This document shows, one piece after another, positions 9,751-30,048 of a stretch of DNA of 64,000 nucleotides (positions are counted from its first letter, which is position 1; every line of letters begins with the position of its first letter). Source of the DNA: Rhizobium sp. SL42. GTDB taxonomy: Bacteria > Pseudomonadota > Alphaproteobacteria > Rhizobiales > Rhizobiaceae. The stretch is taken from assembly GCF_021729845.1 (NCBI RefSeq), contig NZ_CP063397.1:2556001-2620000 (forward strand), in the 5' to 3' direction. Both the position numbers and the translations under genes were made by a program. The notes under the pieces were generated by a model. It was given only the letters and a program-made list of their open reading frames with translations, did no database searches and was not told the DNA's origin.

Positions 9751-11640
9751 TTAGCGGACCATGGCCTGCTGGGCCAGCGCCTGATTGAAGGTCACGCCGT
9801 AGTCGGACTGCAACTGGGTCACCATCTGGTCGAGAATGTCGTCGCCAGCGGCATTGGCCATGGACACGATCTGTTCGTCCTCATTGTTCAGCACGCTACC
9901 GCTCGGTTGATCGCGTACGGCGGTAACCGTAAGCAGGATCTGCGTCGTCGGGTCGGCGCCCGCAGCGCTTGCAACGGTGCCAACCGGGCCGCCAAAGGCG
10001 GCAACGATGGCGGCTGAACCGAGAACGGCGTCTTCGCTGCGGCGTGTCAGGCCGGCCTTGCTTTCAACCGCAAGGCCAAGTTCAGCGGCGACATCTTCCA
10101 GCTTTCCACCATCGGCGACCCGCTTGCGCAGGCTCTCGGCCTTGGCGCCAAGTGCAATCTTCTGCTGTTCCGCGGTCCAGTCGGCAACGGCCTTTTCACG
10201 CACTTCGGCCAGCTCGCGATCGCGTTCCGTCTTGATGTCTGTCACGTCGAACCAGATGTAGCCGCTATTGCCGACATTGACCGGCAAAGCCTCGACCCCG
10301 ATATCGGTCCGGAAGACTTCGGCAAGCAGCGCATCCCGTTCCGGAATGCCTGCAACTTCCGTATCACGAGCGTCCAGACCGCGACGGTCGATCATATCGA
10401 CCGTGATCGGCTTGAGCTTCAGCTGTTCGGCCGCTTCCTTGAGCGTCGTGCCGCCGGCGCGCAGGTCTTCGAACTGATCGTGAACCGTGGTGATATCGGC
10501 GATCGCGGCAGATTCCGCCAGCGCCTCGCGGATTTCTTCCTTCACTTCGTCCAGCGTCCGGGTACGGCCTTCCTTGATATTGGTAACGCGCAGGATCACC
10601 GGACCCAGTGCCCCCTCGACCACAGGCGTCGTGCCGCCTTCCTTGGCGACAGCGAAGGCGGCGTTGGCCAGCGTGACATCCGGCAGCTTGTCGCGCGAGA
10701 AGTCGCCGAGCAGGACATCGCCTGCGGTCTTGCCCTGGTCGGACACAAGCTGGTCGAACGGAGTGCCGGACGCGAGTTCAGCGGCAGCGGCGTCTGCAAG
10801 CTCGCGCGTCTCGAACGTGAGTTGCTCGATCGTGCGCGTGCCAGCAATCTCATAGCTGGCCTTGCGCTTTTCGTAGTCGGCGCGGATCGCGTCGTCAGTG
10901 ATTGCAGCCTTGTCGGCAATGTCGGCAGGCTCCAGCTTCACGTACGTGAAGCTGCGATATTCGGGCGCGCGGTATCCTGCTTTGGCCGTCTGGAACCATG
11001 CCGAAAGTGTTGCATCGTCTGGTGCCTTGACAGGATCGATATTGGCATTGGTCAGGAGGACGTAATTGATGTCGCGGTTTTCGTAGCGGTAGGCCTTCAG
11101 CGCGTCGACCAGGACCTTCGGTGCGGTGAAGCCATCTGCCGTCGCGTCGACGATCTGGCTGCGGATCGCCACTTTCGAGCGCTCCTCGATATAGTCGTCC
11201 TGCCGAAGGCCGGCATTGGCGAGACGCGAGGCAAACAGCTGGCGATCGAAAGCACCGGCAGCGTTCTTGAATGCCGGATCTTCGGCAATCAGCTGCGCCA
11301 GGCGATCCTGTGACAGTCCGAGATTCATGTCGGATGCCAGTTGGTCAAGTGCTGCGCCGGCTGCAAGCTGCGAGAATACCTGGCTTTCGATGCCGAGCGC
11401 GCGTGCCTGTTCCGTGGTCAGCTGTGTGCCGAAGCGTCGGCTGAGTTCGGTGACCTGCCGTTGATAGGCAAATGCGAAGTCGCTTGCCGATACTGTCTGG
11501 TCGCCAACGGTAACCACGGAATTCGAGGTTGTGCTGAACAGGGAGGCGGAAACGCCCCAGACTGCGAATGAGATGACAAGCATCGACATAAGCACTTTGG
11601 CGACCAGGGTTTGGGAAGCTTTTCTCAAAATGACGAGCAT
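9751..11640 (-). CDS. Membrane-anchored peptidyl-prolyl isomerase (PpiD/SurA-like)
   Basis: The 629-residue protein has one N-terminal membrane anchor (about residues 12-32) and a long periplasmic part. It has a SurA_N-type chaperone region (about 40-220, with [20 protein letters not shown]) and a parvulin-type rotamase region near 250-370 ([18 protein letters not shown], then [19 protein letters not shown]). This architecture matches PpiD, a folding factor for proteins leaving the Sec channel. The parvulin domain is divergent, so isomerase activity may be weak or absent. It is the first gene of the minus-strand ppiD-trpDC-moaC-moeA run. Confidence 0.88.
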
Positions 11641-11886
11641 CGGAACGCAATTACCTCATGACAAATCTTCGCATCGGGCGAAGCGGGTGGACTTCCTTAA
11701 ATCAAACCGTCGAGGAAATGAAGGCTCGTTTGGCGAAAAGCCTGCAACCTCTGGCGAAGGGCCAGCGGCGCGGCCGGCCCGTCTCCGACACCGGCAAGTT
11801 CCAACCGCTTGACATCGCGCAAAGCGGCCGGCGCGTGGCGCATTTATACTGCGAGGATAGATGGTCGAAACCGGGGTTGGAATGCC

Positions 11887-14514
11887 GTGACGGACACACG
11901 AATGCGTGAGGTCGCCCCGCATGTCTCCCGCGGCCTGAATGACGCTCAGGTGGCCGATGCGCGAGCAAGGTGGGGCGTAAACAGTCTTCCCGTTGCGCCG
12001 CCGCCAGTATTTTTCACCGTCTTGTTGCGTCAGTTCTTAAGTCCGCTGATCTATATCCTGCTTGCCGCCGCAGGTCTTTCTCTTGTGCTTGGCAAGGCGA
12101 CAGACGCCGGCTTCATTGCGATCGTGCTTGTGATAAACGGCATGATCGGCGCCTTTCAGGAGTATTCTGCAGGAAAATCGGCGGATGCGTTGAGAGCCTT
12201 GGAGCAACCACAGGCGACCGTTATGCGGGATGGCGTGCGCCAAAGGCTGGATGCCGTTGAACTGGTGCCGGGAGACATCGCGCTCGTGGAGAGCGGCGAG
12301 AGGACGCCGGCCGACATCGAACTGCTTGCGGCGGAAGGGCTGCAATGTGACGAGGCCTCGCTAACGGGCGAATCAAGACCGGTGTCCAAATCTGTCGGCG
12401 AATTCGCCTATGCCGGGACCATGATAACACGCGGGCGGGCGACGGGCTGTGTTCGGTCGACAGGCAGCCGCACCGAACTTGGCCGCATTGCCGGGGCCGT
12501 TCAGGCTCCCGCCAGTGTCAGGCCGCCTCTGATGATCAGGATGGAGCAGTTTACCCGCCATATCGCCTATGCGGTCGGTGTGGCGATCGTCGTTCTGGTC
12601 TTGGGCGGCCTTTGGCGGGGGATGCCCCTGGTGGACCTGTTGACCATGTCCGTCGGCCTGGCCGTCAGTGCCATACCCGAGGGGCTACCGATCGCGATCA
12701 CCGTGGCGCTGGCCATCAGCATGCGTCGCATGGCGAAAGCCCATGTCATAGTCCGTCATTTGCCGGCCGTGGAGGCACTCGGTTCCTGCACGATGATCGC
12801 GACCGACAAGACGGGAACGTTGACGCTGAACGAACTCACCGTCACCGACATCCGACTGCCCGATGAAACCCATTGGGTGATCGATGCCGGTGCTCATGCT
12901 CCCGATGGCGCGATCCGCAGCCGGGATGGCAACCATGTCAAGGCAAGCGAAGCCGTATCGCTGTTGTTGCGGGCTGCAAGTCTGCCCAATGAAGCCGAGC
13001 TCGCGGGCCGTGACGGCTTGTGGGGTCCGAGCGGTGACACGGTCGATATCGCCCTGCTGACCGCCGCCCACAAGGCCGGCATGTCGAAAGCCAGTCTGTT
13101 AGAAGAATTTCCGTTGCATCGGCGCCTGCCTTACGAGCCGGAGCAGAAATATGCAGCTTCCTTTCATCATTCAGAAGACCGGCTTCGCATCTTTGCCAAG
13201 GGGGCGCCGGAGCGGTTGATCGCCATGTGTTCCAGCATGCAACTCGGCGATGAGGTGGTCGCACTCGATCCGCATCTGCTGGAGCGTCAGATCGCCGAAA
13301 TGGCCTGCGATGGTCTGCGCGTGCTCGCCTTTGCCGAAGGCGAGATGGAGCATGTCGGTCGCGATGGTCTCGGCGGCCATCTGCTGGTGGATCTGACTTT
13401 CCTCGGACTGGCCGGCATGCAGGACCCGATCCGGCCCGAGGTTCCAACCGCTATCGCCGCCTGCGAGACCGCCGGAATTGGTGTCGTCGTGGTGACCGGT
13501 GACGATCCGCGCACGGCAAGGGTGATCGCCGGCAGGGCAGGTATCCCGGTCGATGATCGTTCCGTGGCAACGGGCGACGAGGTGGCGGATGCTTTGGCAG
13601 AGGCGGAAAGTGTGCTGGATCAGCTGACACGCCGCATCCGTGTCTTCGCCCGTGTGAAGCCCGAGCAGAAGCTTTCCATCGTTCGCTCGCTGGCCCGCAA
13701 CGGTCACTTTGTTGCGGTCACCGGGGATGGGGTCAACGATGCCCCGGCGCTCAAGCATGCGCATGTGGGTGTGGCAATGGGCATGAAGGGTACGGATGTC
13801 GCCAAGGAGAGTGCCGACATCATCCTGACGGATGACAATTTTGCCTCCATCGTTGCCGGCATTGTCGAGGGCAGGGTAGCCTATGGCAATATCCGCAAGG
13901 TCGTCTTCATGCTCGTTGCGACCGGTGCAGCAGAGGTCCTGCTATTCCTGCTTGCCATGGTGCTCGGTCTGCCCATGCCGCTCAGTGCGGTACAACTTCT
14001 GTGGTTGAACCTTGTCACCAATGGCGTCCAGGACGTGGCACTGGTGACAGAGCCCGCGGAAGGCGATGAGCTTACCCGCCCGGCTCGCCGGCCGGATGAG
14101 GCACTCTTCGACCGTCTGATGCTGCGCCGTCTGGTCGTGGCGACCTTGGTCATGGGCCTCGGCGGCTTTGCCGTGTTTTATACCCTTCTGAATACCGGCA
14201 TGGCACCGATCCAGGCAAGCAATCTCCTGCTCGTCCTGTTTATCCTCTTCGAGAATGTCCAGTGCTTAGCCAGCCGCTCCGAACGGCGCTCTGTCTTCGG
14301 CCAGTCGCCCTTTACCAATCCGTATTTGCTGCTCGGCATCATTGGCTCACAGGCGCTGCACCTTGCGGCCATGTATCTGCCCGGATTGAGCGATGTGCTC
14401 GGCATAGCCCCGATCGCGGCAACCGACTGGCTTCTACTTTTCGGCATCTCCCTGCTTGTTCTCGCCGTCAGCGAAATGGACAAGGCCTTCGAATGCCGCC
14501 GCTCCAACCACTGA
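11887..14514 (+). CDS. P-type cation-transporting ATPase (P2-like)
   Basis: This is an ion pump of about 875 residues. It shows an actuator domain with DEASLTGES, the M4 motif AIPEGLPIAI, the phosphorylation site DKTGTLT (Asp near residue 307), a nucleotide-binding domain with KGAPERL, and the hinge TGDGVNDAPALK, then a six-helix C-terminal membrane region. The M4 Glu and an Glu in M5 (GAAEVLLF) fit Ca-pump ligands, but M6 reads NLVTNG where Ca pumps have NLVTDG, so the ion is not certain. The start is uncertain: GTG 11887 is chosen for length; ATG 11902 and TTG 11809 are alternatives. It stands alone between ppiD and gltA. Confidence 0.88.
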   Translation: MTDTRMREVAPHVSRGLNDAQVADARARWGVNSLPVAPPPVFFTVLLRQFLSPLIYILLAAAGLSLVLGKATDAGFIAIVLVINGMIGAFQEYSAGKSADALRALEQPQATVMRDGVRQRLDAVELVPGDIALVESGERTPADIELLAAEGLQCDEASLTGESRPVSKSVGEFAYAGTMITRGRATGCVRSTGSRTELGRIAGAVQAPASVRPPLMIRMEQFTRHIAYAVGVAIVVLVLGGLWRGMPLVDLLTMSVGLAVSAIPEGLPIAITVALAISMRRMAKAHVIVRHLPAVEALGSCTMIATDKTGTLTLNELTVTDIRLPDETHWVIDAGAHAPDGAIRSRDGNHVKASEAVSLLLRAASLPNEAELAGRDGLWGPSGDTVDIALLTAAHKAGMSKASLLEEFPLHRRLPYEPEQKYAASFHHSEDRLRIFAKGAPERLIAMCSSMQLGDEVVALDPHLLERQIAEMACDGLRVLAFAEGEMEHVGRDGLGGHLLVDLTFLGLAGMQDPIRPEVPTAIAACETAGIGVVVVTGDDPRTARVIAGRAGIPVDDRSVATGDEVADALAEAESVLDQLTRRIRVFARVKPEQKLSIVRSLARNGHFVAVTGDGVNDAPALKHAHVGVAMGMKGTDVAKESADIILTDDNFASIVAGIVEGRVAYGNIRKVVFMLVATGAAEVLLFLLAMVLGLPMPLSAVQLLWLNLVTNGVQDVALVTEPAEGDELTRPARRPDEALFDRLMLRRLVVATLVMGLGGFAVFYTLLNTGMAPIQASNLLLVLFILFENVQCLASRSERRSVFGQSPFTNPYLLLGIIGSQALHLAAMYLPGLSDVLGIAPIAATDWLLLFGISLLVLAVSEMDKAFECRRSNH

Positions 14515-19796: not shown

Positions 19797-21140
19797 TCAC
19801 TGTTCGGAAAAGGCGCGCGACATGCTGTCGGTAATCGGTCTGGCGATATAGTTGAAGAAGGTGCGCTCGTTGGTCTGGATCATCACTTCGGCCGGCATGC
19901 CGGGTGTCGGCGTGAAGCCATGAACCCGTGCCAGTTCCGTTGGTGGAATGTTGATCCGGGCGAGATAGACGTCATGCGGGGCGGTCGACGTATTGCCGGA
20001 TTGCTGCAGCGCGTCCGCCGACAGGTAGAAGACATCGCCCTTGAGCACGGGCGTCGTTCTCTGGTTCAGGGCAACCAGCCGAATGGTGGCCGACTGGCCC
20101 AGCTTGACGCTGTCGATGTCGTTGCGCGGGATCTGAGCTTCGATGATCAGCGGCACGCCGGCGGGCAGGATTTCGAGGATTGCCTTGCCGCTTTCGATGA
20201 CACCGCCGTTGGTGTGATAGTGGATCCGGACGACGGTGCCGGAAACCGGCGCATTGATTGTCGCGCGCTCGAGGATATTGGCCGCTTCCCGCAACTGCTC
20301 CCGCACCATGTCGCGCTCGCTCTGAATGGCCTGCAGCCGCTCGAGTGCATCTTCGCGATAGGCACTTTCCGCGCGCAACACTTCCTGCTCGCCCTTCGTC
20401 CGTTGTGCCTGGGTCTCGGCGATTTCCGCCTCAAGCCGTCCGATCTGGCCGTCCGCCTCGGCGATGGCCCGCAGCAGAGCCTTGACCTCGTTGGCCCGGG
20501 CCACGCCCTTTTCCAGCAGGATCTGCTTTGCGGCATATTCATCCTTCAGCAGTTCGAGCTGGCGGATGGACGCATCGCGTTGCCTTGTATAGCCAATTTC
20601 GCGGAATTCGAGTGCCCGGATGTTTTGTTGCAGCAAGGCGCTCTCGCTGGAGAGCTTTTGCCGCTGCGCCCTGAAATTCAGCTGCTGGCTGACCAGGATC
20701 GCCCAGACGTCGGGATCGCCGCGGTGTTCTTTCAGCAACGAGGAAAGATCCAGTTTCTCGACGGTCTCGAACTGCGCGGTCAGCCGCGCCGCCGTCACAT
20801 CCAGTCGCATGCGGCGTAGGAACAGTTCACGTTTTTTCGCCTGGGCCGCAGTCTCGTCCAGTTGCACGAGAGCCTGTCCTTCGACCACCTGATCGCCTTC
20901 GCTGACGAGGATTTGCTCGATAATGCCACCCTCCAGATGCTGGAGGATCTTGTTCTGGCCGGTCGCGACGAAGCTGCCTTGGGCAATGACCGCAGCGGCA
21001 AGCGGCGCGGTCGATGCCCAAGTGCCGAACCCGCCGAAGGCGATGGCCATCAGAACGAGGCCGATAATCGTCTGCTTGCTGATCGACCGTGGCACGTCGG
21101 AATACCACTCGATATCGTGGACTTTGGCGATGTCTACCAT
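19797..21140 (-). CDS. Type I secretion periplasmic adaptor (HlyD family)
   Basis: The 447-residue protein has a short cytoplasmic N-terminus, one membrane anchor (about residues 22-45) and the HlyD layout. A lipoyl-like half (QHLEGGIIEQILVSEGDQV) is followed by a long coiled-coil hairpin (about 105-285, rich in Glu/Gln/Arg) and a beta-barrel part (PVSGTVVRIHYHTNGGVIE, then PGMPAEVMIQT near the C-terminus). It should link the inner-membrane ABC exporter to an outer-membrane TolC channel. It starts 12 bases after the exporter gene, so the two are co-translated. No TolC gene is in the window. Confidence 0.93.
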   Translation of the reverse strand: MVDIAKVHDIEWYSDVPRSISKQTIIGLVLMAIAFGGFGTWASTAPLAAAVIAQGSFVATGQNKILQHLEGGIIEQILVSEGDQVVEGQALVQLDETAAQAKKRELFLRRMRLDVTAARLTAQFETVEKLDLSSLLKEHRGDPDVWAILVSQQLNFRAQRQKLSSESALLQQNIRALEFREIGYTRQRDASIRQLELLKDEYAAKQILLEKGVARANEVKALLRAIAEADGQIGRLEAEIAETQAQRTKGEQEVLRAESAYREDALERLQAIQSERDMVREQLREAANILERATINAPVSGTVVRIHYHTNGGVIESGKAILEILPAGVPLIIEAQIPRNDIDSVKLGQSATIRLVALNQRTTPVLKGDVFYLSADALQQSGNTSTAPHDVYLARINIPPTELARVHGFTPTPGMPAEVMIQTNERTFFNYIARPITDSMSRAFSEQ

Positions 21141-21152
21141 GCACGTCGCCTC

Positions 21153-23354
21153 CTATTGCAGTTGATGGCCGAATGAACCGCCTTCGATGTCGATGCCGCG
21201 GGCTTGCAATGCCTTCAGCACATCCATGCGCATGCCGAACAAGGCGACGGTGCCGTTGACCAAGAGCAGGATCTTGTCGACGCTGTTGAGCAGGGCAGGG
21301 CGCTGGGTCACGGTGATCATGGTGATCTTTTGCTCCTTGGCATGCTGAAGCGCGCGCATCAGGGCCACGTCGCCGGCGCTGTCGAGGTTGGAATTGGGCT
21401 CGTCGAGAACCACCAGATGCGGGTCGCCGAAAAAGGCCCGGGCCAGTGCAATGCGCTGCTTCTGGCCGCCCGACAGGGGTGAGCCGTCGGCAGCCACCAT
21501 CGTTTCATAGCCATGCGGCAGGCCCGCGATCATTTCGTGCACATCGGCCAGCATGGCGGCGCGGTAGATCTGCTCGTCATCGGCATCGGAGCGCATCCGG
21601 GCAATATTGGCCTTGATGGTTCCGGGGAAGAGCTGCACGTCCTGCGGCAGGTAGCCGATGTTTTCGCCGAACTGCCGCTGGTCCCAGTTGCGAAGGTCCA
21701 TCAGGTCCAGCCGTACATTTCCGGATGTCGGCAGGATCGAGCCGACCAGCATCTTGCCGAGCGTGGTCTTTCCCGCACCGGAATTGCCGATGACGGCAAG
21801 CGAATCGCCTGGCTGGAGAGCAAACGAAATCCCGTTCAGCACGACCCGCTTGGTGCCCTGAGGCACATAGAGCAGCCGCTCCACGTCCAGCCGCCCCTCG
21901 GGCTTCGGCAGGTTGAGGCGCTCGAAATTGAGCGGTGAGGCTTTCAGCAGCGCAGCGATCCGCCCATAGGCGGCGCGCGACTGGCTGAACTGGTTCCATC
22001 CTTCGATCGCACCTTCGATCGGCGCCAGCGCACGCCCGGCAATGATCGAGGACGCGATGACCATGCCACCGGTGAGTTCACCTTGGATCGAAAGGTAGGC
22101 ACCCCAGCCGAGCATCGTGACCTGCGTCAGAAGACGGATTCCTTTGGAGACCGCAGCGATTGCGATGTTCCTGTCCTGCGCAATCACCTGCGCCTTCAGC
22201 GATGCGGCCGTATCCTTGCCCCAGATGTGCACCGCCTCCGGTATCATCGCCAGTGCATTGATGATCTGCGAATTGCGGGTCATCGAATCAAGATGCAGGT
22301 TGGCCTTGATCTGTGCGGTGTTGGCGTCCGCAAATGGCACGGCCGTGATGCGCTGGTTTATCTGGGTGAAGATCAGCAGCAGGATCGCCGTGACCACGAC
22401 GATGTAGCCGAGATGCGGGTGAATCAGGAAAACCGCGAGCAGGAAAAGCGGTGCGATCGGGGCATCGAGAAAGGCGAGCAGCGTCCGCGAGACGAGGAAC
22501 GAGCGGACCTGCTGCAGGTCTCCGAGCGTCTGGTATTCACGACCATTGCCCTGCAGGGACGCCCGCGCTGCCGCGCTCAGGATCGGCGCCCCGAGCTGGG
22601 CTGCAACCTCCACGGCGGTTCGCATCAGTATGAAACGGCGCAATGCATCGAAGGCCGACTGGAGAATGATGGCACCGACGATCACGATCGTCAGCATGAT
22701 CAGCGTATCGGTCGAGCGGCTGGTCAGCACCCGGTCCGAAATCTGGAACAGATAGATCGGTATGGCCAGCACCAGCACATTGCTCGCAACAGTGAATACC
22801 ATGACGATCAACAGGTTGCGCTTGACCGCATGGATGCCGGCCTTCAGGCTGGCATTGAAATCGACCTGGCCGAGCCGCTTGTGGAACGCACCGCCACCGC
22901 CACCCGATCCCTTGCCGCCCCGGGGGGATGCCGGATTGTCCGTGGTGGTTGTTTCGGCCTTCACCGGGCCGCAATCTCCATCGATCACCTTCATGCCGTC
23001 CGGGGCTCTCGATTCGAGCGGGCGGCTCTGCGGTGCATCAGGTTCGGGCTGCGGTTCCTGCCTGATCTCGGTGGTCGGCTCGGGCGAGGGAGTTTCTGGC
23101 GAGGGCGTTTCTGGCGTATCTGTCTGGCTGTAGGCGACCCGCAGGTTTTGCGGGGGGCGGATCGGCTGGGCCGACGTCGCCGATTGCGGCTTGGGATTGC
23201 CGACCTCTGCTTTCAGATAATCTTCGACGGCCCGTTCGAGCCTTGCATAGGTTCCATCCGTATCATTCGATGCTTCCAGCCGTGGCGATCTCGGTCCCGC
23301 CCTGTTTTCTGTTGGTTCAATCGGTGGCTCCAGGCGTTTGCGGATTTCCGACAT
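21153..23354 (-). CDS. Type I secretion ABC exporter (fused permease-ATPase) with long N-terminal extension
   Basis: The 733-residue protein has a transmembrane domain (about residues 175-430) and an ATPase domain (about 490-725). It has Walker A GNSGAGKTT (near 520), signature LSGGQKQR, Walker B LVVLDEP and D-loop SNLD. There is no C39 peptidase domain, which places it with the PrtD/LapB-like exporters of proteins with uncleaved C-terminal signals. Two oddities are visible. The first 150 residues are a Pro/Glu/Thr-rich, probably disordered extension with PETPSPETPSPEP. The H-loop reads TVTQRP, so the usual switch His is Gln. It lies 11 bases after the 682-residue repeat protein and 12 before the adaptor. 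Confidence 0.93.
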   Translation of the reverse strand: MSEIRKRLEPPIEPTENRAGPRSPRLEASNDTDGTYARLERAVEDYLKAEVGNPKPQSATSAQPIRPPQNLRVAYSQTDTPETPSPETPSPEPTTEIRQEPQPEPDAPQSRPLESRAPDGMKVIDGDCGPVKAETTTTDNPASPRGGKGSGGGGGAFHKRLGQVDFNASLKAGIHAVKRNLLIVMVFTVASNVLVLAIPIYLFQISDRVLTSRSTDTLIMLTIVIVGAIILQSAFDALRRFILMRTAVEVAAQLGAPILSAAARASLQGNGREYQTLGDLQQVRSFLVSRTLLAFLDAPIAPLFLLAVFLIHPHLGYIVVVTAILLLIFTQINQRITAVPFADANTAQIKANLHLDSMTRNSQIINALAMIPEAVHIWGKDTAASLKAQVIAQDRNIAIAAVSKGIRLLTQVTMLGWGAYLSIQGELTGGMVIASSIIAGRALAPIEGAIEGWNQFSQSRAAYGRIAALLKASPLNFERLNLPKPEGRLDVERLLYVPQGTKRVVLNGISFALQPGDSLAVIGNSGAGKTTLGKMLVGSILPTSGNVRLDLMDLRNWDQRQFGENIGYLPQDVQLFPGTIKANIARMRSDADDEQIYRAAMLADVHEMIAGLPHGYETMVAADGSPLSGGQKQRIALARAFFGDPHLVVLDEPNSNLDSAGDVALMRALQHAKEQKITMITVTQRPALLNSVDKILLLVNGTVALFGMRMDVLKALQARGIDIEGGSFGHQLQ

Positions 23355-23365
23355 TTATGTCCCCT

Positions 23366-25414
23366 TTAATGTCCAATCATGCCGTTCACGCCATCACCCG
23401 TGTGGCCGTCATAGTCGGACGGCATGCAGGAGGCATCGGATGCCGTCGAGTGATCGTCTGGAGCGAGCATGGAATCGTCGAGAAAAAGTATGGCTTCGTT
23501 GACCAGCGCATCGGGATCCGGGTTGCCGAAGTCCGGTTGCCCGGAGATCAACTCGGCTTGGAAGAGCGTTTCCTGCGAATATTGCTCACCGCCGACATAG
23601 GTCTTCCCCACGGAATCCAGGTCGATGATCGTGGCGTTGTTCAGCAGTGCATTGGATCCGGTTTCGATTGTCCAGTTCGCATCGAGATTGGGTGCAATGG
23701 CATCCATCGCCAGCGCGATCTGGTCGCTGTCGCCAAGGATGTTCGTCTGGCGAATATATTGAAGGTTGATCAGGTCGCCGCTGATATAGAGGACCCGCAA
23801 CCCCTGCAGTCCCGCAAAGGCCTCATCGGACATTAGATCCGGCGAGATGCTGCCATCGCCATTTGCAAACGAGGCCAATGTGCCGAGTTGGTCCTGCGAC
23901 AGGCTGTCGAACCGGTCGGCATCGCCGATCGTGCCGATGCGAGCCTGGTTCCAGAGCAGGTTGCCGGATGAGGAAACGGAGCCTTCGCCTGATGTCTGGA
24001 AATCAGCCGTCGCGCCGACATAGTCATTGTCGAACAGCACGTTCATCTGGTGGATGATGTTCGCGTCGAAGATCGAACCGCCAATGATGATCAGATCGTA
24101 GGAAAAACCCAGTTCGAAGACTGAAGCGTGGTTGACGCCGAAATTGTCGCCGGCGATCACGCTTGTTGTGACGCCCGACGAGGAGAGAATGCCGACATCG
24201 TCGTCGCTCATGAAGATGATCTGCTCGAGCCAGTTGACGATCATCAGATCGCCATGGATCTCGGTAACCGCCCAAAAAGCCGGATAGTCGTCGTTGCCGC
24301 TCGCGCCAGGCTCGGATCCGTTCGACGTGTCGAGATGATCGAACGTTGCGATATTGAACATCTCGTTCGTGGCGGCGTCATGGGTCCAGTCGCTGACCGC
24401 TGACGTGATCGCGTCGGTGTCCCACAGCGCGTTGATTTGAACGATCGCGTTCACTTCGACATGATCTTCGGCAACGATGGTAATGGTCGCACCGGTCCAG
24501 AAATTCTGTAGCACGACATTGTTGATTAGGGTGTTGCCGCCGGTATGGACTTCCACCGACACCTCGATGGCGACCGTGCCATCGTCCTGGGTCCAGGTAT
24601 TGGTGCTTTCGCCGTCTGCGCCCTCTTCTCCCTCGCTGTCATCCTCTGCGCTATCGTCTCCGTCGCTCTCATCCTTGTCGAAGGAATGATAGTCGTCGAG
24701 ATTCGGAGCCTCCTCGACAAGTTCGCCGTTGACATAGATGCCGTCGATCGACGTCGCGCTGAGGTTAATCTGAACCGCGTCACTGTCTGCGGGCACGTCT
24801 TCCAGCTGGTCAATGACTGTCTGGATAACGCCGATCATGTCCGCGCTTGATCCGGGCCGTTCGAGGTCGCCCAGAGGCGATAGCGCAGCCGCCTCTTCGA
24901 AGCCTTCGAGCACGGCAGCGTCACCGACGGGTTCCGGATTGAACGCCAGTCCGTGCCCGCCAACGCTGAAGTAATCGTCGTCGGACAGCGAGATGGCCTG
25001 GTTGAAATGGTTGACGACCGAGCCGGGCGCTAGAATTTCCGGGGTTGGATAGAGATAGTGCACCGAGTCGATCGGTGTATTGAAACCGTAGTTTGGCGTA
25101 TCCGGCAGGACCCGGCCGTCAATGTGATGGCCGAAGGTTCTGGCATCGGAAAACGACTGTGATTGGACCGGTTTGGTCAGGACATACCAGTGGTCTGGTG
25201 CCGGGGCACGATAGCCGAAATCAGGCTCAAACCCCAGAAGATCGAAGGGCGCCGCAAAATCGCTCGTATGGACCGGCAGCTTCTCCACATCGACATCGGC
25301 CTTGGTAAAGGCGAATTCGTTATAAGCCTCCCGAGCCCGAGCATTCTCGACGCTGATATGGAAGAAGCCGATAAAGTGGCTGATCTCTTCGGTGAATTTG
25401 TCCATCATCGTCAA
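23366..25414 (-). CDS. Large acidic repeat protein, putative type I secretion substrate
   Basis: I do not recognise a named family for this 682-residue, strongly acidic protein. It has no signal peptide or membrane segment. Residues 245-272 are an Asp/Glu/Ser tract. From about 292 to 600 two short patterns alternate. Module B is N-x-h-x-N-x-[AV]-x-h (starting near 294, 350, 424, 485, 588). Module A is N/Q-x-h-x-Q-x-[NI]-x-[LM]-x-D-x-D (near 322, 394, 452, 553), with one more A-like copy near 135. Alternating inward residues suggest beta-strands, perhaps a solenoid. No RTX nonapeptide is present. The TTG at 25414 follows AAGGAG by eight bases; ATG 25408 is an alternative. Position directly before the exporter genes suggests export through them. 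Confidence 0.75.
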   Translation of the reverse strand: MTMMDKFTEEISHFIGFFHISVENARAREAYNEFAFTKADVDVEKLPVHTSDFAAPFDLLGFEPDFGYRAPAPDHWYVLTKPVQSQSFSDARTFGHHIDGRVLPDTPNYGFNTPIDSVHYLYPTPEILAPGSVVNHFNQAISLSDDDYFSVGGHGLAFNPEPVGDAAVLEGFEEAAALSPLGDLERPGSSADMIGVIQTVIDQLEDVPADSDAVQINLSATSIDGIYVNGELVEEAPNLDDYHSFDKDESDGDDSAEDDSEGEEGADGESTNTWTQDDGTVAIEVSVEVHTGGNTLINNVVLQNFWTGATITIVAEDHVEVNAIVQINALWDTDAITSAVSDWTHDAATNEMFNIATFDHLDTSNGSEPGASGNDDYPAFWAVTEIHGDLMIVNWLEQIIFMSDDDVGILSSSGVTTSVIAGDNFGVNHASVFELGFSYDLIIIGGSIFDANIIHQMNVLFDNDYVGATADFQTSGEGSVSSSGNLLWNQARIGTIGDADRFDSLSQDQLGTLASFANGDGSISPDLMSDEAFAGLQGLRVLYISGDLINLQYIRQTNILGDSDQIALAMDAIAPNLDANWTIETGSNALLNNATIIDLDSVGKTYVGGEQYSQETLFQAELISGQPDFGNPDPDALVNEAILFLDDSMLAPDDHSTASDASCMPSDYDGHTGDGVNGMIGH
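23615..24541 (-). repeat. Degenerate protein-level repeat array (alternating modules A and B)
   Basis: Within the 682-residue protein, five B modules and four A modules alternate B-A-B-A-B-A-B-A-B between residues 292 and 600. Examples are NALLNNATI and NLLWNQARI for B, and NAIVQINALWDTD and NIIHQMNVLFDND for A. Spacing between modules varies from about 20 to 60 residues, so this is a protein repeat and not a DNA tandem repeat. Confidence 0.65.
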
Positions 25415-25437
25415 GGCCGTAACTCCTTGTTCCTGAG

Positions 25438-25467
25438 GTGCCTCAATGACCGCCTGTCATGAGGCAC
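25438..25467 (-). other. Intercistronic hairpin 2
   Basis: GTGCCTCAATGAC and GTCATGAGGCAC pair around a CGCCT loop with one bulged base. It lies upstream of the ribosome site of the 682-residue protein gene. It has no T run on the minus strand, so it is unlikely to be a simple terminator. With the next hairpin it could stabilise message ends or hinder ribosome access. Confidence 0.6.
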
Positions 25468-25473
25468 AAGCGA

Positions 25474-25496
25474 GCTGCGCAGGAAGCCTGCGCAGC
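25474..25496 (-). other. Intercistronic hairpin 1 (perfect 10-base stem)
   Basis: GCTGCGCAGG and CCTGCGCAGC form a perfect stem with a 3-base loop, 43 bases after the stop of the glycine-rich gene. It is followed on the minus strand by TCGCTTGTG rather than a T run. The pair of hairpins occupies most of the 125-base gap between the two repeat-protein genes. Confidence 0.6.
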
Positions 25497-25539
25497 CCCG
25501 TGACGTTTTGCTATAATTGGCTAAATGCGATCCCGGCCC

Positions 25540-27243
25540 TTACACCCCGTCGTCGCCGTCCTCGCCAACAACCGTACTGGTCAGGCTGCCGCCGACGATT
25601 GTCATGTCGATTGCATTCTGCTGCAGGTTGGCACCCATCACGATTTCCTGGTTGAAGGCACTGGTGTCGATGCCAGCGTCAGCACTTGCCGAACTGGTTC
25701 CGGTGACATAGCCGTCATCGGAATTGCCCGATCCCCAAGAACCGCCGTCGCCTGCGCCGCCATAACCGGTAGTCGCAGTGCCACCGTCGCCGCCAAGAGC
25801 GCCGTTGCCGCCGAGAGCCCAGCCACCGACTGCTCCGCCACCGGTGCCGGCTGTCCAGGCGCCGCTCAGAGCGCTGCCGCCGTCACCACCTTCTGCCCAG
25901 GCATCCCCGCCCCAAGCATCTCCGCTGGTCGCACTGCCAGAAGTCCCGCCGCCGCCGGTACCAGCTGCACCGGCACCGCCGTCACCACCGACGCCAAGGC
26001 CAGCGCCTGTACCGGCACCGAGGCCAAGGCCCAGTCCACCGGCATCGCCGCCACCGCCACCATTACCGGAATCGGTTGCTGCACCAGAGCCGCCACCGGC
26101 ACCGCCGGCACCGCCGCCGCCACCTGCGCCACCGGTATTGCTGCCACCGGCTCCGCTACCGGCACCACCACCTTCGTTGTCGATGAGGATCGGATTGATC
26201 AGGCCAAGCGACAGACCGAGGCCGTTGCCGCCTTCGCCGCCCGTTGCTTCGCTGTCGCCGGCATCGTCCGCGTCGCCGCCATCGGCGTCACCGCCGTTGC
26301 CGCCTTCACCGCCGTCACCCGTGGTGTTGCTACCGCTGGCGCCGTCGCCAGCCAATGCCAGGCCGGCACCCAGACCAAGACCGAGGCCCAGACCGACACC
26401 AACGCCTTCAGCGCCGTTGCCGCCCTTGCCGCCGACACCGATGCCGCCAAGTGCGGCCCCTGAGTCCGCGCTGCCGGAATCGCCTTCGCCGCCGTCTGCA
26501 TCGCCGCCGTCGCCTTCGCCGCCTTCAGCGCCACTGAGCGCCAGACCGCCGAGACCGATGCCGCCGAGAGCAGTGCCGCCGAGAGCGTTGCCGCCGTCGC
26601 CGCCGTTGCCGCCGTCCGCGTCTGCATTGCCTCCGCCGTTTCCGCCTTCACCGCCGCCATTGATGCCGTCTTCGGCCTTGGCAATCCCGCCATTGGCTTT
26701 GGCGTTCACCGTGAAGGCGGCATCATTCTTGACTTCGGCTTCCTCCAGCTTGTCATTGTCCTGGAGATTGGCGATCTGGTTCATGACATTGCCGACGTCA
26801 TTGCCGGCGCCGTCAAGGGCATCGTTCATGATGTCCTTGAACTGGACGTTGAACAGGCCCTCCACCGAGGAGCCTTTGGAAACGTCGATATCGGCGAAGT
26901 CATCGTCGCTGGGCACATAGCCTTCAAGCCCGGCATCGACGGTCACGCCGACAGTAACGGTCGTGGTGCTGACGTTTTCGTTGAGGTTGAGATTGGCGTT
27001 CAGGTTACCGTTGAGGTTCCCATTGCCATTGCCATTCAGGTTGCCATTGCCGTTGCCATTGAGGTTTTCGGACTCACTGGACTGGTACTGACCTTGCCCC
27101 TGTCCCTGACCTTGGCCCTGTCCTTGCGCTTGAGCCTCAAACTGAGCTTGCGCTTCAAGTTGGGCCTGTGCCTGCGCTTCGGACTGTTCCTGATCCTGAC
27201 TGTCGTCGTCATGATCGTAGTAGTTATTCTTCGGCTTACCCAT
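25540..27243 (-). CDS. Glycine-rich low-complexity protein, putative type I secretion substrate
   Basis: This 567-residue protein matches no family I can name. The ATG at 27243 has GGAGG eight bases upstream; an in-frame ATG six codons earlier overlaps that site. In order it has an Asp-rich start (YYDHDDDSQDQEQ), an Ala-Gln tract (21-40), six Gly-Gln pairs (41-52), an Asn-Gly-Leu tract (61-90), a non-repetitive segment (91-190) with VSTTTVTVGVTVDAG, and a glycine-rich body (about 193-525) of GG-x-GG-x type. A different C-terminal tail contains NLQQNAIDMTIVGGS. The tail resembles module B of the neighbouring 682-residue protein. GGxGxD calcium-binding repeats are not evident. Secretion and a surface or matrix role are inferences from context. 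Confidence 0.72.
   Translation of the reverse strand: MGKPKNNYYDHDDDSQDQEQSEAQAQAQLEAQAQFEAQAQGQGQGQGQGQGQYQSSESENLNGNGNGNLNGNGNGNLNGNLNANLNLNENVSTTTVTVGVTVDAGLEGYVPSDDDFADIDVSKGSSVEGLFNVQFKDIMNDALDGAGNDVGNVMNQIANLQDNDKLEEAEVKNDAAFTVNAKANGGIAKAEDGINGGGEGGNGGGNADADGGNGGDGGNALGGTALGGIGLGGLALSGAEGGEGDGGDADGGEGDSGSADSGAALGGIGVGGKGGNGAEGVGVGLGLGLGLGAGLALAGDGASGSNTTGDGGEGGNGGDADGGDADDAGDSEATGGEGGNGLGLSLGLINPILIDNEGGGAGSGAGGSNTGGAGGGGGAGGAGGGSGAATDSGNGGGGGDAGGLGLGLGAGTGAGLGVGGDGGAGAAGTGGGGTSGSATSGDAWGGDAWAEGGDGGSALSGAWTAGTGGGAVGGWALGGNGALGGDGGTATTGYGGAGDGGSWGSGNSDDGYVTGTSSASADAGIDTSAFNQEIVMGANLQQNAIDMTIVGGSLTSTVVGEDGDDGV
26974..27201 (-). repeat. Low-complexity coding repeats (Ala-Gln, Gly-Gln, Asn-Gly)
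   Basis: This stretch encodes residues 15-90 of the glycine-rich protein and consists of successive short-period repeats. It has Ala-Gln with interspersed Leu/Phe-Glu, then six Gly-Gln pairs, then Asn-Gly-Asn-Leu units with related 6- and 18-base DNA periods. Such DNA is prone to slippage, so its length may vary between strains. Confidence 0.75.
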
Positions 27244-28050
27244 AGTCGTATCCTCCGTCATCGGATTCCGCGACTGTTTGACCGTTATTCATCTTCTATA
27301 CGGTCTTCACATGCGAATTCCGGATTGATCTGCGGTTGAAAGACGATTTGCCTCACGAGGCCATTTTCACTGTCGCCTGTGCGACGATTGTCGATGTTGG
27401 TGAAGTTCTCCTCCTGCCTGTGGTTGTGAGGTGCCGATCTCTGTTCGGGCCGTCTCTTGGAAAGGCATGCCCAACGCGAACAACCAAGTCGCCGCCTCAA
27501 CTCAAGTCTGTGCCTGTTGGCGCCAGAAGATAAGCTGATACATGGAGCTAGTAATGTGCAGTGCAGCAATTGTTTGCGGAGGTCTAGACAATCCGTGCAA
27601 TCGATCGTTGCTGACATGCTTTGCGCGATTGTCAGTCTAATCTTGTCTGTGGTTCACAATGAAACAGACTTGATCGATACTCTTCTCAGAGTTGAGCAAT
27701 TTTGTTGATACCCGCGGGAAAAACCTGACATACCTAGAAAGCGCGCTGTGCGGATTGTGTCGCGCGACTCTGGCATTTGGTCGTGGATCAGGATCAAAAG
27801 AGGTAGGCTGCGGTCCGAATCCCCCTCGTTTTGTGTAGATGATCTAGACTTGTACTTGTCGACGCGCGCTGGAATCCGCTTCGTTTGCAATATGCTGCGC
27901 CAATGTTGTCGCTCATGATGTCTAGTGGCGCGCCCAGTAGATCGTTCGGACTATTCCCAACCGTTGCCGTTTGGTTTACCGTTTTCTAAAGGAACGGAGG
28001 TGGCACCGGCTTGTGCACTCTGTGATTGTATTTTCGGGGAGGCATGCTGC
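27244..28050. promoter_or_regulatory. Long divergent non-coding region between glycine-rich gene and LuxR regulator
   Basis: About 800 bases with lower GC than the flanks and no convincing gene separate the two divergent starts. TCTAGAC occurs at 27583-27589 (inside the palindrome GTCTAGAC, 27582-27589) and again at 27843-27849, with a third partial TCTAG at 27921. A minus-strand frame ending at 27285 is coding-like over its last 40 codons (GLVRQIVFQPQINPEF) but has no usable start. The region probably holds the promoters of the secretion locus and of the regulator. Confidence 0.5.
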
Positions 28051-28872
28051 ATGAAACAACTTGCGCCTCACGTCGGAAGCGGTGGCGCGGATTTGGCGGC
28101 TTCTCTGGAGGCGATGCCAAATCTTCGAACACTTCTGTATGTTGGTCCGCCGGATGTTATTTCGGGGGCAATGGCTGCGGCCATTCAACGAGAATTTCCC
28201 TTCATCAGGGTTTCGCACAGCGTCAGCCTGTTATCGGCTTTGGGGGAGTTCGATATTCCGCTACGGCTCGTGCTTGTCGATCTGCTGCATGCACACGAAC
28301 TGAGTGATTGTGCCGGCGAACTGCTTGCACAGCATCCCAACGCCGCTATCGCCATCGTCACGGACAGTGATCTGCGTGGCAGCGTGGAGCGCTTTCACCT
28401 CGTCGATACCAGCCACGTCAAAGGCGTTTTGCCTCTCAATGTCAGCCTCGATGTTCTGCTTTCAATGCTGCGGATCATCCTGAGGGGAGGAACGTACTTC
28501 CCGTCGATCGCCTATCGAAATCAAGAAAGCTTCAGCTGGCGAAACGAGGAGCAAGGCTCATACGACGAGGCGAAACCGCACCCTGTGCAAGAAATCCAAG
28601 GCAAGATCATGCACCAGTTGACCAAACGTGAAAACGAGATCCTGGCCAGGATAGCCTTGGGCAACCAGAACAAGATCATCGCCGCGGCACTCGGCTTGTC
28701 CGAACACACGGTCAAGATCCATATCCACAACATCATCACCAAGCTTGGCGTCCACAATCGAACCGAAGCGGTCGCGCTCTATTTCGAACACAGGGACAGG
28801 GAGGGAGGCGGATCAGGCTCCGGCGAGTTCCAACGGCCGGGCAGCAATCCCGTCTCAGGCGGAGATGCGTAG
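28051..28872 (+). CDS. LuxR-family transcriptional regulator with degenerate receiver-like domain
   Basis: The ATG at 28051 has GGGGAGG eight bases upstream and gives 273 residues; in-frame sequence upstream to 27925 lacks a ribosome site. The C-terminal domain (about residues 185-250) is a LuxR-type HTH: LTKRENEILARIALGNQNK, then LSEHTVKIHIHNIITKLGV with the recognition helix. The N-terminal 140 residues resemble a response-regulator receiver (LVLVDLLHAH with one Asp, then AIAIVTDSD) but the full acidic pocket is not clear, so phosphorylation is doubtful. It is divergent from the secretion locus and is the best candidate for its regulator. Its 3' end overlaps the next gene by eight bases. 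Confidence 0.85.
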   Translation: MKQLAPHVGSGGADLAASLEAMPNLRTLLYVGPPDVISGAMAAAIQREFPFIRVSHSVSLLSALGEFDIPLRLVLVDLLHAHELSDCAGELLAQHPNAAIAIVTDSDLRGSVERFHLVDTSHVKGVLPLNVSLDVLLSMLRIILRGGTYFPSIAYRNQESFSWRNEEQGSYDEAKPHPVQEIQGKIMHQLTKRENEILARIALGNQNKIIAAALGLSEHTVKIHIHNIITKLGVHNRTEAVALYFEHRDREGGGSGSGEFQRPGSNPVSGGDA

Positions 28873-29347
28873 ATTCCAGGATGTGCTGCTGCTGATCGGG
28901 CAGCTGAACTACACGTGGACCAACACCGAAAGCCTCTTGATCCATATGATTGCCGGCCTTGCCCAATCGGACAAGGAGACGGCGATCGTCATCTTTCTGA
29001 CGCTGAATACGCCACGGGCGCGCATTGATCTCGTAGAGCGTCTGGCCAAGATGCAAAAGACACCGGCCGATTGTCGCGCCGATGTGCTGGATTCAACGAG
29101 ACGCTTGTCGGAAGAGGCAAAGCTTCGCAACAAATACAACCATTGTATCTATTCGTTTGATCCCGACAGCGGTCGCGGCTTGACCCAGTCCATGCGAATC
29201 TTCGAAGGCCGGGACGACATCAAATACGGCAAGATCGAAGAACTCGACGATCAGGAAATCGAGCGGATCCGTGAGAGCATCCGGTCACTGATCAGGATCA
29301 ACCAGTCTTTCTGGAGCATCACCGAGAAGTATGGATTTCCCAAATAG
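28865..29347 (+). CDS. Hypothetical helical protein, 160 residues
   Basis: No named family is recognised. The start at 28865 overlaps the end of the LuxR gene by eight bases and implies coupled translation; a longer form from 28745 would lie wholly inside the regulator gene. The protein is soluble and probably all helical, with RRFQDVLLLIGQLNYTWTN at the N-terminus, RIDLVERLAKMQ, a NKYNHCIYSF segment and a charged C-terminal helix. No signal peptide, metal site or enzyme motif is obvious. The overlap suggests a function tied to the regulator. Confidence 0.65.
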   Translation: MRRFQDVLLLIGQLNYTWTNTESLLIHMIAGLAQSDKETAIVIFLTLNTPRARIDLVERLAKMQKTPADCRADVLDSTRRLSEEAKLRNKYNHCIYSFDPDSGRGLTQSMRIFEGRDDIKYGKIEELDDQEIERIRESIRSLIRINQSFWSITEKYGFPK

Positions 29348-29505
29348 ACATCTCTTGATCTGAACGGCTGCAGGTCACCGGCCGACAGAGTTCGGCCGAA
29401 TCGCTCCGAAATCCTGTGACTGGCTGTATGTGACGGCGTCGCCCATTGTTTTTGCCGATTATTGGCGCAAGAACTGACCGCGAATCGCAATGGAGATCGT
29501 GATTG

Positions 29506-30048
29506 ATGTCGGTGGACACGGAAAAGACGCTGTTCGGCAAGGCTGTGCATGAACTGAATCCGGCGGAAAAGAAGGTGCTGCGCCACGCGCGTGAACAACG
29601 CACCCTTTCGACCGATGCCGGGCAGGACTTCCTGGCTGTGTCCACAACGGGCCAGCGTCTGGCCGATGCGATCGCCCGTATCGGCGGCTCGTGGAACTTC
29701 ATCATCGGGTTTCTGCTGTTCCTGGCGGTCTGGGTCGTCCTCAATACCGTCGTCCTGGCAACGGAAGCGCTGGATCCCTATCCATTCATCTTTCTCAACC
29801 TGATTCTCTCCATGCTCGCCGCCATCCAGGCGCCGATCATCATGATGAGCCAGAACCGCCAGGCAGAGCGCGACCGGTTCATGGCCGCCAAGGATTATGA
29901 GATCAATCTGAAGGCGGAGATCGAGGTGCTCGGTCTGCACCGCAAGATCGATCTGCATGTTCTGAAGGAGTTGCAGGAGACCCGGCAGGAGATCGCCGAG
30001 CTGAAGGCAAGCATCGACGCCCTTTCGCAAGGGCGTCACAAGCACTAG
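29506..30048 (+). CDS. DUF1003 membrane protein
   Basis: The 180-residue protein carries the DUF1003 pattern. There are two membrane segments (about residues 63-84 and 93-112), with RIGGSWNFIIGF leading into the first and ALDPYPFIFLNLILSMLAAIQAP around the second. These are followed by IIMMSQNRQAERDR and a charged coiled-coil-like C-terminal helix. Family function is unknown. ATG 29506 is preferred over TTG 29503; GGAG lies about 10 bases upstream. It is ten codons or so from the next gene but there is no direct functional link to kdsA. Confidence 0.85.
   Translation: MSVDTEKTLFGKAVHELNPAEKKVLRHAREQRTLSTDAGQDFLAVSTTGQRLADAIARIGGSWNFIIGFLLFLAVWVVLNTVVLATEALDPYPFIFLNLILSMLAAIQAPIIMMSQNRQAERDRFMAAKDYEINLKAEIEVLGLHRKIDLHVLKELQETRQEIAELKASIDALSQGRHKH

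Follow-up and report, generated by a model that had tools for sequence, protein, structure and literature searches.

A PrtD-type type I secretion locus with two non-RTX proteins and a sixth gene in Rhizobium sp. SL42 and its relatives

The window analysed here, a stretch of 64,000 nucleotides from Rhizobium sp. SL42 (contig NZ_CP063397.1, positions 2,556,001 to 2,620,000), harbors a type I secretion locus of six genes. Four of these lie on the minus strand and encode a Gly/Asn-rich protein (GLY), an acidic repeat protein (REP), an ATP-binding cassette (ABC) exporter and an HlyD-family adaptor; a LuxR-type gene (LUX) is located upstream in divergent orientation. An original prediction, made from the letters of the DNA alone, had described these five genes, and all were found in place, as were the gaps of 125, 11 and 12 bases between GLY and REP, REP and ABC, and ABC and HlyD, calculated from the coordinates of the open reading frames (ORFs). 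The prediction overlooked a sixth gene, ORF6, of which the ATG at 28865 overlaps the LUX stop. Alignment to homologues indicated that GLY most likely starts at ATG 27243, with GGAGG in front, and moved the start of LUX to ATG 28051. The same gene order is maintained among REP relatives, which indicates more than chance. Positions in the window are as follows:

19797..21140, minus strand: HlyD-family type I periplasmic adaptor, 447 amino acids (TIGR01843, 357.6 bits)
21153..23354, minus strand: PrtD-type ABC exporter, 733 amino acids (TIGR01842, 711.5 bits; in the module clade of the exporter tree)
23366..25414, minus strand: REP, acidic repeat protein, 682 amino acids (homologues; no family match)
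25540..27243 (ORF to 27261), minus strand: GLY, Gly/Asn-rich protein, 567 amino acids from ATG 27243 (conserved N- and C-terminal parts, variable Gly-rich middle)
28051..28872 (ORF from GTG 27925), plus strand: LUX, CsgD/NarL-type regulator with a degenerate receiver (homologue alignment and family models)
28865..29347, plus strand: ORF6, sixth component, 160 amino acids, with an RNxxxH motif (co-occurrence with REP, and motif)

Three of the six proteins, GLY, REP and ORF6, are without a convincing match to a curated family. The scores of the other two members of the minus-strand cluster exceed the cut-offs of 510.15 bits (ABC on TIGR01842, PrtD) and 208.65 bits (HlyD on TIGR01843), the latter in agreement with the predicted adaptor family. 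The exporter had been described as PrtD/LapB-like; the PrtD half of this label stands, whereas the other half does not, the score on LssB being 352.9 bits against a cut-off of 693.1. It is also below the HlyB cut-off (260.3 versus 725.55 bits), and Pfam gives no C39 peptidase domain on ABC, as had been anticipated. By the features tested, the locus is a type I secretion system of the PrtD type. The genome carries six PrtD-type exporters over the cut-off. A search for a TolC homologue elsewhere had been suggested, and one over the cut-off is encoded at C2:305115-306335 (246.9 versus 225.15 bits). This TolC, the only one over the type I cut-off, adjoins an ABC protein below the PrtD cut-off, and the pair (G000 C2:302852-306335) is apparently a separate type I locus of the same genome.

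REP is found in 41 of 199 Rhizobiaceae genomes, in 35 of 397 genomes of the order and in 2 of 385 of the class; since one of the latter two is the window's own genome, its occurrence outside the order is sporadic. It was confirmed in 289 stretches of the genome collection and in 32 plasmid records, 13 of which are from Rhodobacterales according to a reading of the table; in some Rhodobacterales, seawater isolates included, the module is located on plasmids. Neighbourhoods were gathered by REP similarity alone in four sets, which were searched with profiles of all six proteins: 41 from the family (with the window), 80 named loci (the best 80 of the 289 confirmed stretches), 33 from the order and 8 from plasmids. 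The rows are not independent because the sets overlap in genomes, and the GLY, ORF6 and LUX profiles, built from family loci, favour family rows. In the order family, named, order and plasmid, ABC is present in 41, 80, 33 and 8 rows (all 162), HlyD in 40, 79, 33 and 7, GLY in 38, 79, 26 and 8, and ORF6 in 39, 69, 28 and 8, with weak matches counted in (18 GLY rows below 50 bits and 7 LUX rows below 100 bits). In the three rows without HlyD the stretch ends less than 2 kb from REP. The proposal that the repeat proteins belong with the exporter/adaptor pair is thus supported, since every one of the 162 overlapping rows has a related exporter adjoining REP; the opposite pattern, with REP homologues mostly away from type I exporters, was not seen. 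Sulfitobacter sp. W074 carries the module on two plasmids of one strain (L225 and L226); on the smaller record about 1.2 kb separates REP from the start of the record, so that the L225 exporter is cut by the boundary.

Of the 103 exporters placed in a tree, those adjoining REP, 78 in number, form one group with a Shimodaira–Hasegawa-like approximate likelihood ratio test (SH-aLRT) value of 100, apart from 25 others, namely 20 other PrtD-like rows, two below the PrtD cut-off and three sister exporters. This is a quick tree without bootstrap, with some long outer branches, from which the named loci were left out; of the five other PrtD exporters encoded in the window's genome it holds four, since the length filter removed the remaining one, which is partial. 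Core identity to the window exporter is 60-91% for module exporters, 49-53% for the three sisters and 36-43% for the 20 others. On a module exporter profile, which favours module rows because it was built from 26 of the 78, 156 of the 162 REP-adjoining exporters score 850-1071 bits and those 22 non-module exporters of the tree that are not sisters 241-540 bits. The other six of the 162 are two that are cut by a record end (L225, L083), a broken one (L096) and the sisters (L222-L224, 694-758 bits). The sisters come from genomes with weak REP matches (G303, G460, G481), so the system seems to have a more distant variant. The L096 copy, from Rhizobium sp. RCAM05350, looks broken because of its low exporter and adaptor scores (477 and 524 bits) and a REP that is annotated in pieces. 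With six PrtD-type exporters in one genome such proteins are evidently common, and an ordinary one might lie beside unrelated genes by chance; given an exporter beside REP in every row, a single exporter clade, and ORF6 and REP in the same family genomes (see below), we regard this as extremely improbable.

Module exporters have a long N-terminal extension, which in the window takes this form:

22833..23354, minus strand: low-complexity N-terminal tail of ABC, residues 1-174, with the motif IDGDCGPV and a Gly linker before FHKRL (lengths and composition)

Gly, Ala and Pro are abundant in the tail. The length from the preceding stop to the core, an upper bound for the tail, is mostly 90-300 residues in module exporters and 77 or less in 18 of 20 others. 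A loose I[ED]GDxGP-like motif fits 35 of the 78 module rows and is lacking in most distant rows, so the motif was rejected as an invariant feature of the clade. The lowest module value, 33 residues, belongs to Sinorhizobium meliloti Ak57, of which the tail is probably frameshifted because the in-frame stretch before the core is so short. In that locus (L229) the exporter is unannotated between REP and HlyD (10092 to 12288), and its core scores well.

The Rhizobiaceae genomes that carry ORF6, 41 of 199, are exactly those that carry REP. The two family-set misses are contig ends, and both genomes hold ORF6 on another contig, in one case adjoining a LUX fragment at the contig end. In the order sample REP and ORF6 are each found in 35 of 397 genomes, 32 of them common to both by list comparison. 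Of the 144 rows in which the sequence upstream of REP extends for 5 kb or more, ORF6 is absent from three, which are L222-L224, and it is thereby more constant than LUX. In several loci it is positioned downstream of HlyD, away from LUX; in view of this position and the co-occurrence with REP, ORF6 seems to be part of the secretion module rather than of the regulator alone. The 26 aligned relatives are 45-86% identical, placing ORF6 among the better-conserved parts of the module, and a hydrophobic segment is found in none of the 27 members. A profile search in which 8000 candidates were scored found 1986 proteins, and the 120 of these that were listed show no Pfam domain. The RNxxxH motif is conserved in 25 of 27 members and [RK]NxxxH in all 27. 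RNxxxH is the HEPN signature, and no HEPN profile appears by name among the Pfam and PADLOC families listed for the 27 members; the strongest library match is JetA1 of PADLOC (E 0.00034), in one member. Assignment to the HEPN family was therefore dropped for want of profile support, the motif remaining a suggestion at motif level. Adjoining ORF6, at 29503-30048 on the plus strand of the window, is a gene for a DUF1003 protein (127.8 bits); in the 40 family neighbourhoods searched, no match to it of at least 45 bits was among the matches listed.

Because an exporter lies beside REP in all 162 rows, the exporters form one clade, and REP and ORF6 are found in the same 41 of 199 genomes, we favour, with moderate confidence, a dedicated non-RTX (non-repeats-in-toxin) type I export module of which the product would assemble at the surface or into a matrix. 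The export and the surface or matrix role are suggested by the motifs shared between GLY and REP, the type of regulator, and polysaccharide genes in some records.

The window REP has no match in Pfam, NCBIfam or PHROGs, and the REP profile matched no PDB chain. Some REP relatives are labelled 'Type I secretion protein' or 'type I secretion protein ATPase' in databases; the window REP matched no ATPase family of Pfam or NCBIfam. Five Gln residues (139, 326, 398, 456 and 556) are invariant in 78 of 78 aligned proteins, each opening a Q-x3-h-x-D-x-D motif in which the Asp positions are 94-100% conserved and the hydrophobic position is looser:

24974..25000, minus strand: REP Q-unit 1 (Q139-D147), Q in 78 of 78
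24413..24439, minus strand: REP Q-unit 2 (Q326-D334), Q in 78 of 78
24197..24223, minus strand: REP Q-unit 3 (Q398-D406), Q in 78 of 78
24023..24049, minus strand: REP Q-unit 4 (Q456-D464), Q in 78 of 78
23723..23749, minus strand: REP Q-unit 5 (Q556-D564), Q in 78 of 78

N-x3-N motifs alternate with the Q-motifs (Asn 96-100%), and a shorter version is present at N354.

GLY gave one sub-threshold Pfam match (TrAA12, 18.8 bits versus a cut-off of 30.9) and none in NCBIfam or PHROGs. Its variable N-terminal tract, Gln-/Asn-rich in many rows, is followed by a conserved block, in most rows by a Gly-rich middle, and then by a conserved C-terminal part:

26752..26778, minus strand: single GLY Q-motif (QIANLQDND), one copy in 34 of 34 proteins
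25543..25767, minus strand: conserved C-terminal part of GLY (GANLQQNAIDMTIVGG), from the homologue alignment

The 34 proteins are from those of the 41 family rows that hold a homologous frame of more than 250 residues, seven rows being dropped. In all 34 the conserved block contains the pattern Q-x3-[LIM]-x-[DE]-x-[DE] exactly once, compared to 160 of 3400 block shuffles, and the REP Q-unit profile reaches at least 8 bits in 14 of 34 GLY proteins versus 1 of 1020 shuffles. In profile-profile comparison four successive alignments pair the GLY block with REP Q-units (best P 0.0019), and the C-terminal part is paired with REP 409-453 (P 0.00056). GLY and REP thus have the Q-motif in common. A candidate fusion of the two, a single annotated protein of 1,517 residues in Rhodobacter sp. 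CZR27 (L323 8584-13137), was rejected: it has an Arg-rich middle, apparently out of frame, where the GLY C-terminal part is expected, the GLYC profile has no match there, and the joint protein looks like GLY and REP merged by annotation across a frameshift.

Both putative substrates had been predicted to lack signal peptides and RTX nonapeptides. Taking an N-terminal hydrophobic segment as the criterion, without a signal-peptide program, we found one in 0 of 78 REP and 0 of 34 GLY proteins; the window REP has no nonapeptides, and the window GLY none with a hydrophobic eighth residue. RTX repeats are found in the majority of the characterised type I substrates of comparable size. REP and GLY are acidic, with a median isoelectric point of 4.05, which is the floor of the calculation method, and a median Lys+Arg content of 3.4% and 1.2%, respectively. 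This strong acidity and the several D-x-D motifs of REP, which could bind metal, would also suit soluble, non-polymerising products of the same module, for example acidic binders of calcium or exopolysaccharide. There is a precedent in RapD, a rhizobial type I substrate that is reported to bind calcium and exopolysaccharide (PMC9298526). The invariant Gln, the near-invariant Asn and the Q-motif common to GLY and REP point instead to contact between repeats, and we consider release as soluble factors unlikely.

The conservation of ORF6 and the composition of GLY also bear on a comparison with the Caulobacter Cdz system (cdzABCD-cdzI), which, as described in PMC5380434, comprises a type I exporter with its adaptor, a pair of secreted surface proteins and a divergent gene, with no linked TolC. 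The layout of exporter, two proteins, divergent gene and unlinked TolC is the same here, so GLY and REP could be a toxic pair in surface-bound, contact-dependent killing with ORF6 as the immunity protein. The window GLY contains 9 apolar GxxxGxxxG matches against a shuffled mean of 0.59, and L040 has 13. Of seven GLY proteins tested, however, L058 and L064 have none, L055 two and L067 one. CdzC and CdzD are cleaved proteins of 86 and 84 residues, and CdzI resides in the inner membrane (PMC5380434), whereas the proteins of the module have 567 and 682 residues, Pfam finds no peptidase on ABC, and ORF6 is without a hydrophobic segment in 27 of 27 members. ORF6 is, moreover, among the more conserved parts of the module. 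Typical immunity proteins, unlike ORF6, are not known to be among the well-conserved parts of their systems. A killing role is, on balance, improbable.

LUX has a GerE domain (Pfam, 69.9 bits) with a NarL-like helix-turn-helix, in keeping with the LuxR-type placement proposed for it, and its best NCBIfam model is CsgD (NF007505). By reading of the alignment, the acceptor position of the receiver is not conserved in the 27 aligned rows. Co-occurrence with the regulator was borne out in part, LUX being common (31 of 41, 53 of 80, 12 of 33 and 7 of 8 rows) and not constant. Two further elements lie between LUX and GLY or at the GLY start:

27527..27554, minus strand: conserved upstream element TTACTAGCTCCATGTATCAGCTTATCTT, candidate operator or promoter, near-unchanged in close relatives
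27236..27292, minus strand: short leader frame (MNNGQTVAESDDGGYDYG) overlapping the GLY start; leader element in relatives

In its strict form the upstream element is found in 11 of 141 loci versus 0 of 705 shuffles. Of 109 dereplicated upstreams, 26 contain a relaxed core, counted with no shuffle control, and 25 of these have it 242-372 bases before the GLY frame. LUX is nearby in 23 of these 26 as compared to 53 of the 83 others, and a link of the element to LUX is possible. A similar leader element is present in 58 of 143 loci, out of frame with GLY in 46, and may be a regulatory leader.

From family knowledge, position and sequence motifs we infer how export, assembly, the borrowing of TolC, regulation and the job of ORF6 could fit together in a dedicated export module. 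LUX, CsgD-like with a decayed receiver pocket, would activate the GLY-REP-ABC-HlyD operon across the common intergenic region. ABC and HlyD would borrow a TolC encoded at another place in the genome and export GLY and REP in one step; a candidate site for docking is the long tail that ABC has in the cytoplasm. Outside the cell REP, of which the Gln/Asn motifs are probably strands, and GLY would co-assemble via like strands into a polymer of a coat or matrix, GLY contributing one Gln motif and its conserved C-terminal part around a Gly-rich spacer. ORF6, which is co-inherited and has no hydrophobic segment, would for that reason act in the cytoplasm as an obligate helper that may either keep the substrates export-ready or control the operon at the RNA level.

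A stricter form of this proposal, which we put forward as tentative, is a two-component extracellular polymer similar to curli, made via type I instead of type VIII export. Curli likewise combine a divergent CsgD/NarL-type regulator with two secreted repeat proteins that have a Gln/Asn motif in common. REP would then be a beta-solenoid with a Gln/Asn ladder, and GLY a Gly-rich nucleator or cross-linker with a single copy of the same strand. ORF6 would be dedicated to guarding the amyloid-prone substrates in the cytoplasm, and LUX would correspond to CsgD in function. Unlike curli (csgDEFG-csgBAC), the module has a type I exporter in place of the CsgG pore and no Sec signal, neither REP nor GLY has a curlin match in Pfam, and three of its proteins belong to no recognised family.

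Several results weigh against the assembled-product module or its details. LUX is far under the CsgD cut-off (57.3 versus 250 bits) and is absent from 44 of the 144 rows with room for it. GLY was undetected in 11 of 162 rows, three of which are too short to hold it. The HH-suite probabilities for the GLY-REP matches are low, at 14% and 30%, and the REP Asn-motif profile performs no better in GLY than in shuffles (top scores 1.9 versus 8.5 bits), for which reason only the Q-motif is claimed as common to both proteins. REP is found without ORF6 in G303, G460 and G481, all weak REP matches, and ORF6 without REP in G486, G529 (32 bits) and G541 (near a contig end); the ORF6 neighbourhoods in the latter three genomes contain no REP, which counts against strict linkage. 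Finally, five of the 11 usefully annotated neighbourhoods, out of 14 annotated regions examined around the module, are without polysaccharide genes. Four Sulfitobacter records, from three strains, and Shinella PSBB067 have such genes in the vicinity of the module, and Shinella zoogloeoides has a flippase and a polyketide synthase there. The polysaccharide association is anecdotal, the Sulfitobacter strains being close kin, and it would also suit soluble exopolysaccharide-binding products.

Among characterised systems, PrsDE/PrtDE of rhizobia and related bacteria also combine a PrtD-type ABC protein and an HlyD adaptor with substrates that lack a signal peptide. The module described here has no gene for an outer-membrane factor in its operon, and the PrsDE operon is not known to include one either. 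Unlike PrsDE, the module has its two non-RTX proteins in the operon, and its exporter belongs to a separate clade with a long N-terminal tail. PrsDE exports many proteins that are encoded genome-wide, including Rap proteins, glycanases and NodO, and Rhizobium leguminosarum additionally has toaDE and tobDE as orphan type I systems (both from PMC2275737). Similar to REP, BapA of the Paracoccus denitrificans BapABCD system is an acidic, repetitive type I substrate encoded beside its exporter, and it is needed for biofilm formation; it is 2,211 residues long, contains 891 Asp-Ala repeats and is accompanied by BapD, an outer-membrane protein encoded in linkage (PMC5588039). Kinship with BapA was rejected in view of these Asp-Ala repeats and its own BapBCD (same source). 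A P. denitrificans record also carries the module. Among the matches listed in open-access PMC, no paper describes the module in its title or at the start of its abstract.

The locus represents a clade of exporters that come with presumed non-RTX substrates of their own and with an additional protein that is nearly constant; it was found in 41 of the 199 Rhizobiaceae genomes sampled. The module is present in many soil relatives and some marine relatives of rhizobia. It raises the question why a secretion module nearly always keeps a small, soluble-looking RNxxxH protein. If its products form a matrix, the module would be a target at hand for studies of how roots and surfaces are colonised; and if the curli-like form is true, many rhizobia and some marine Rhodobacterales would possess in it a major matrix system made of protein.

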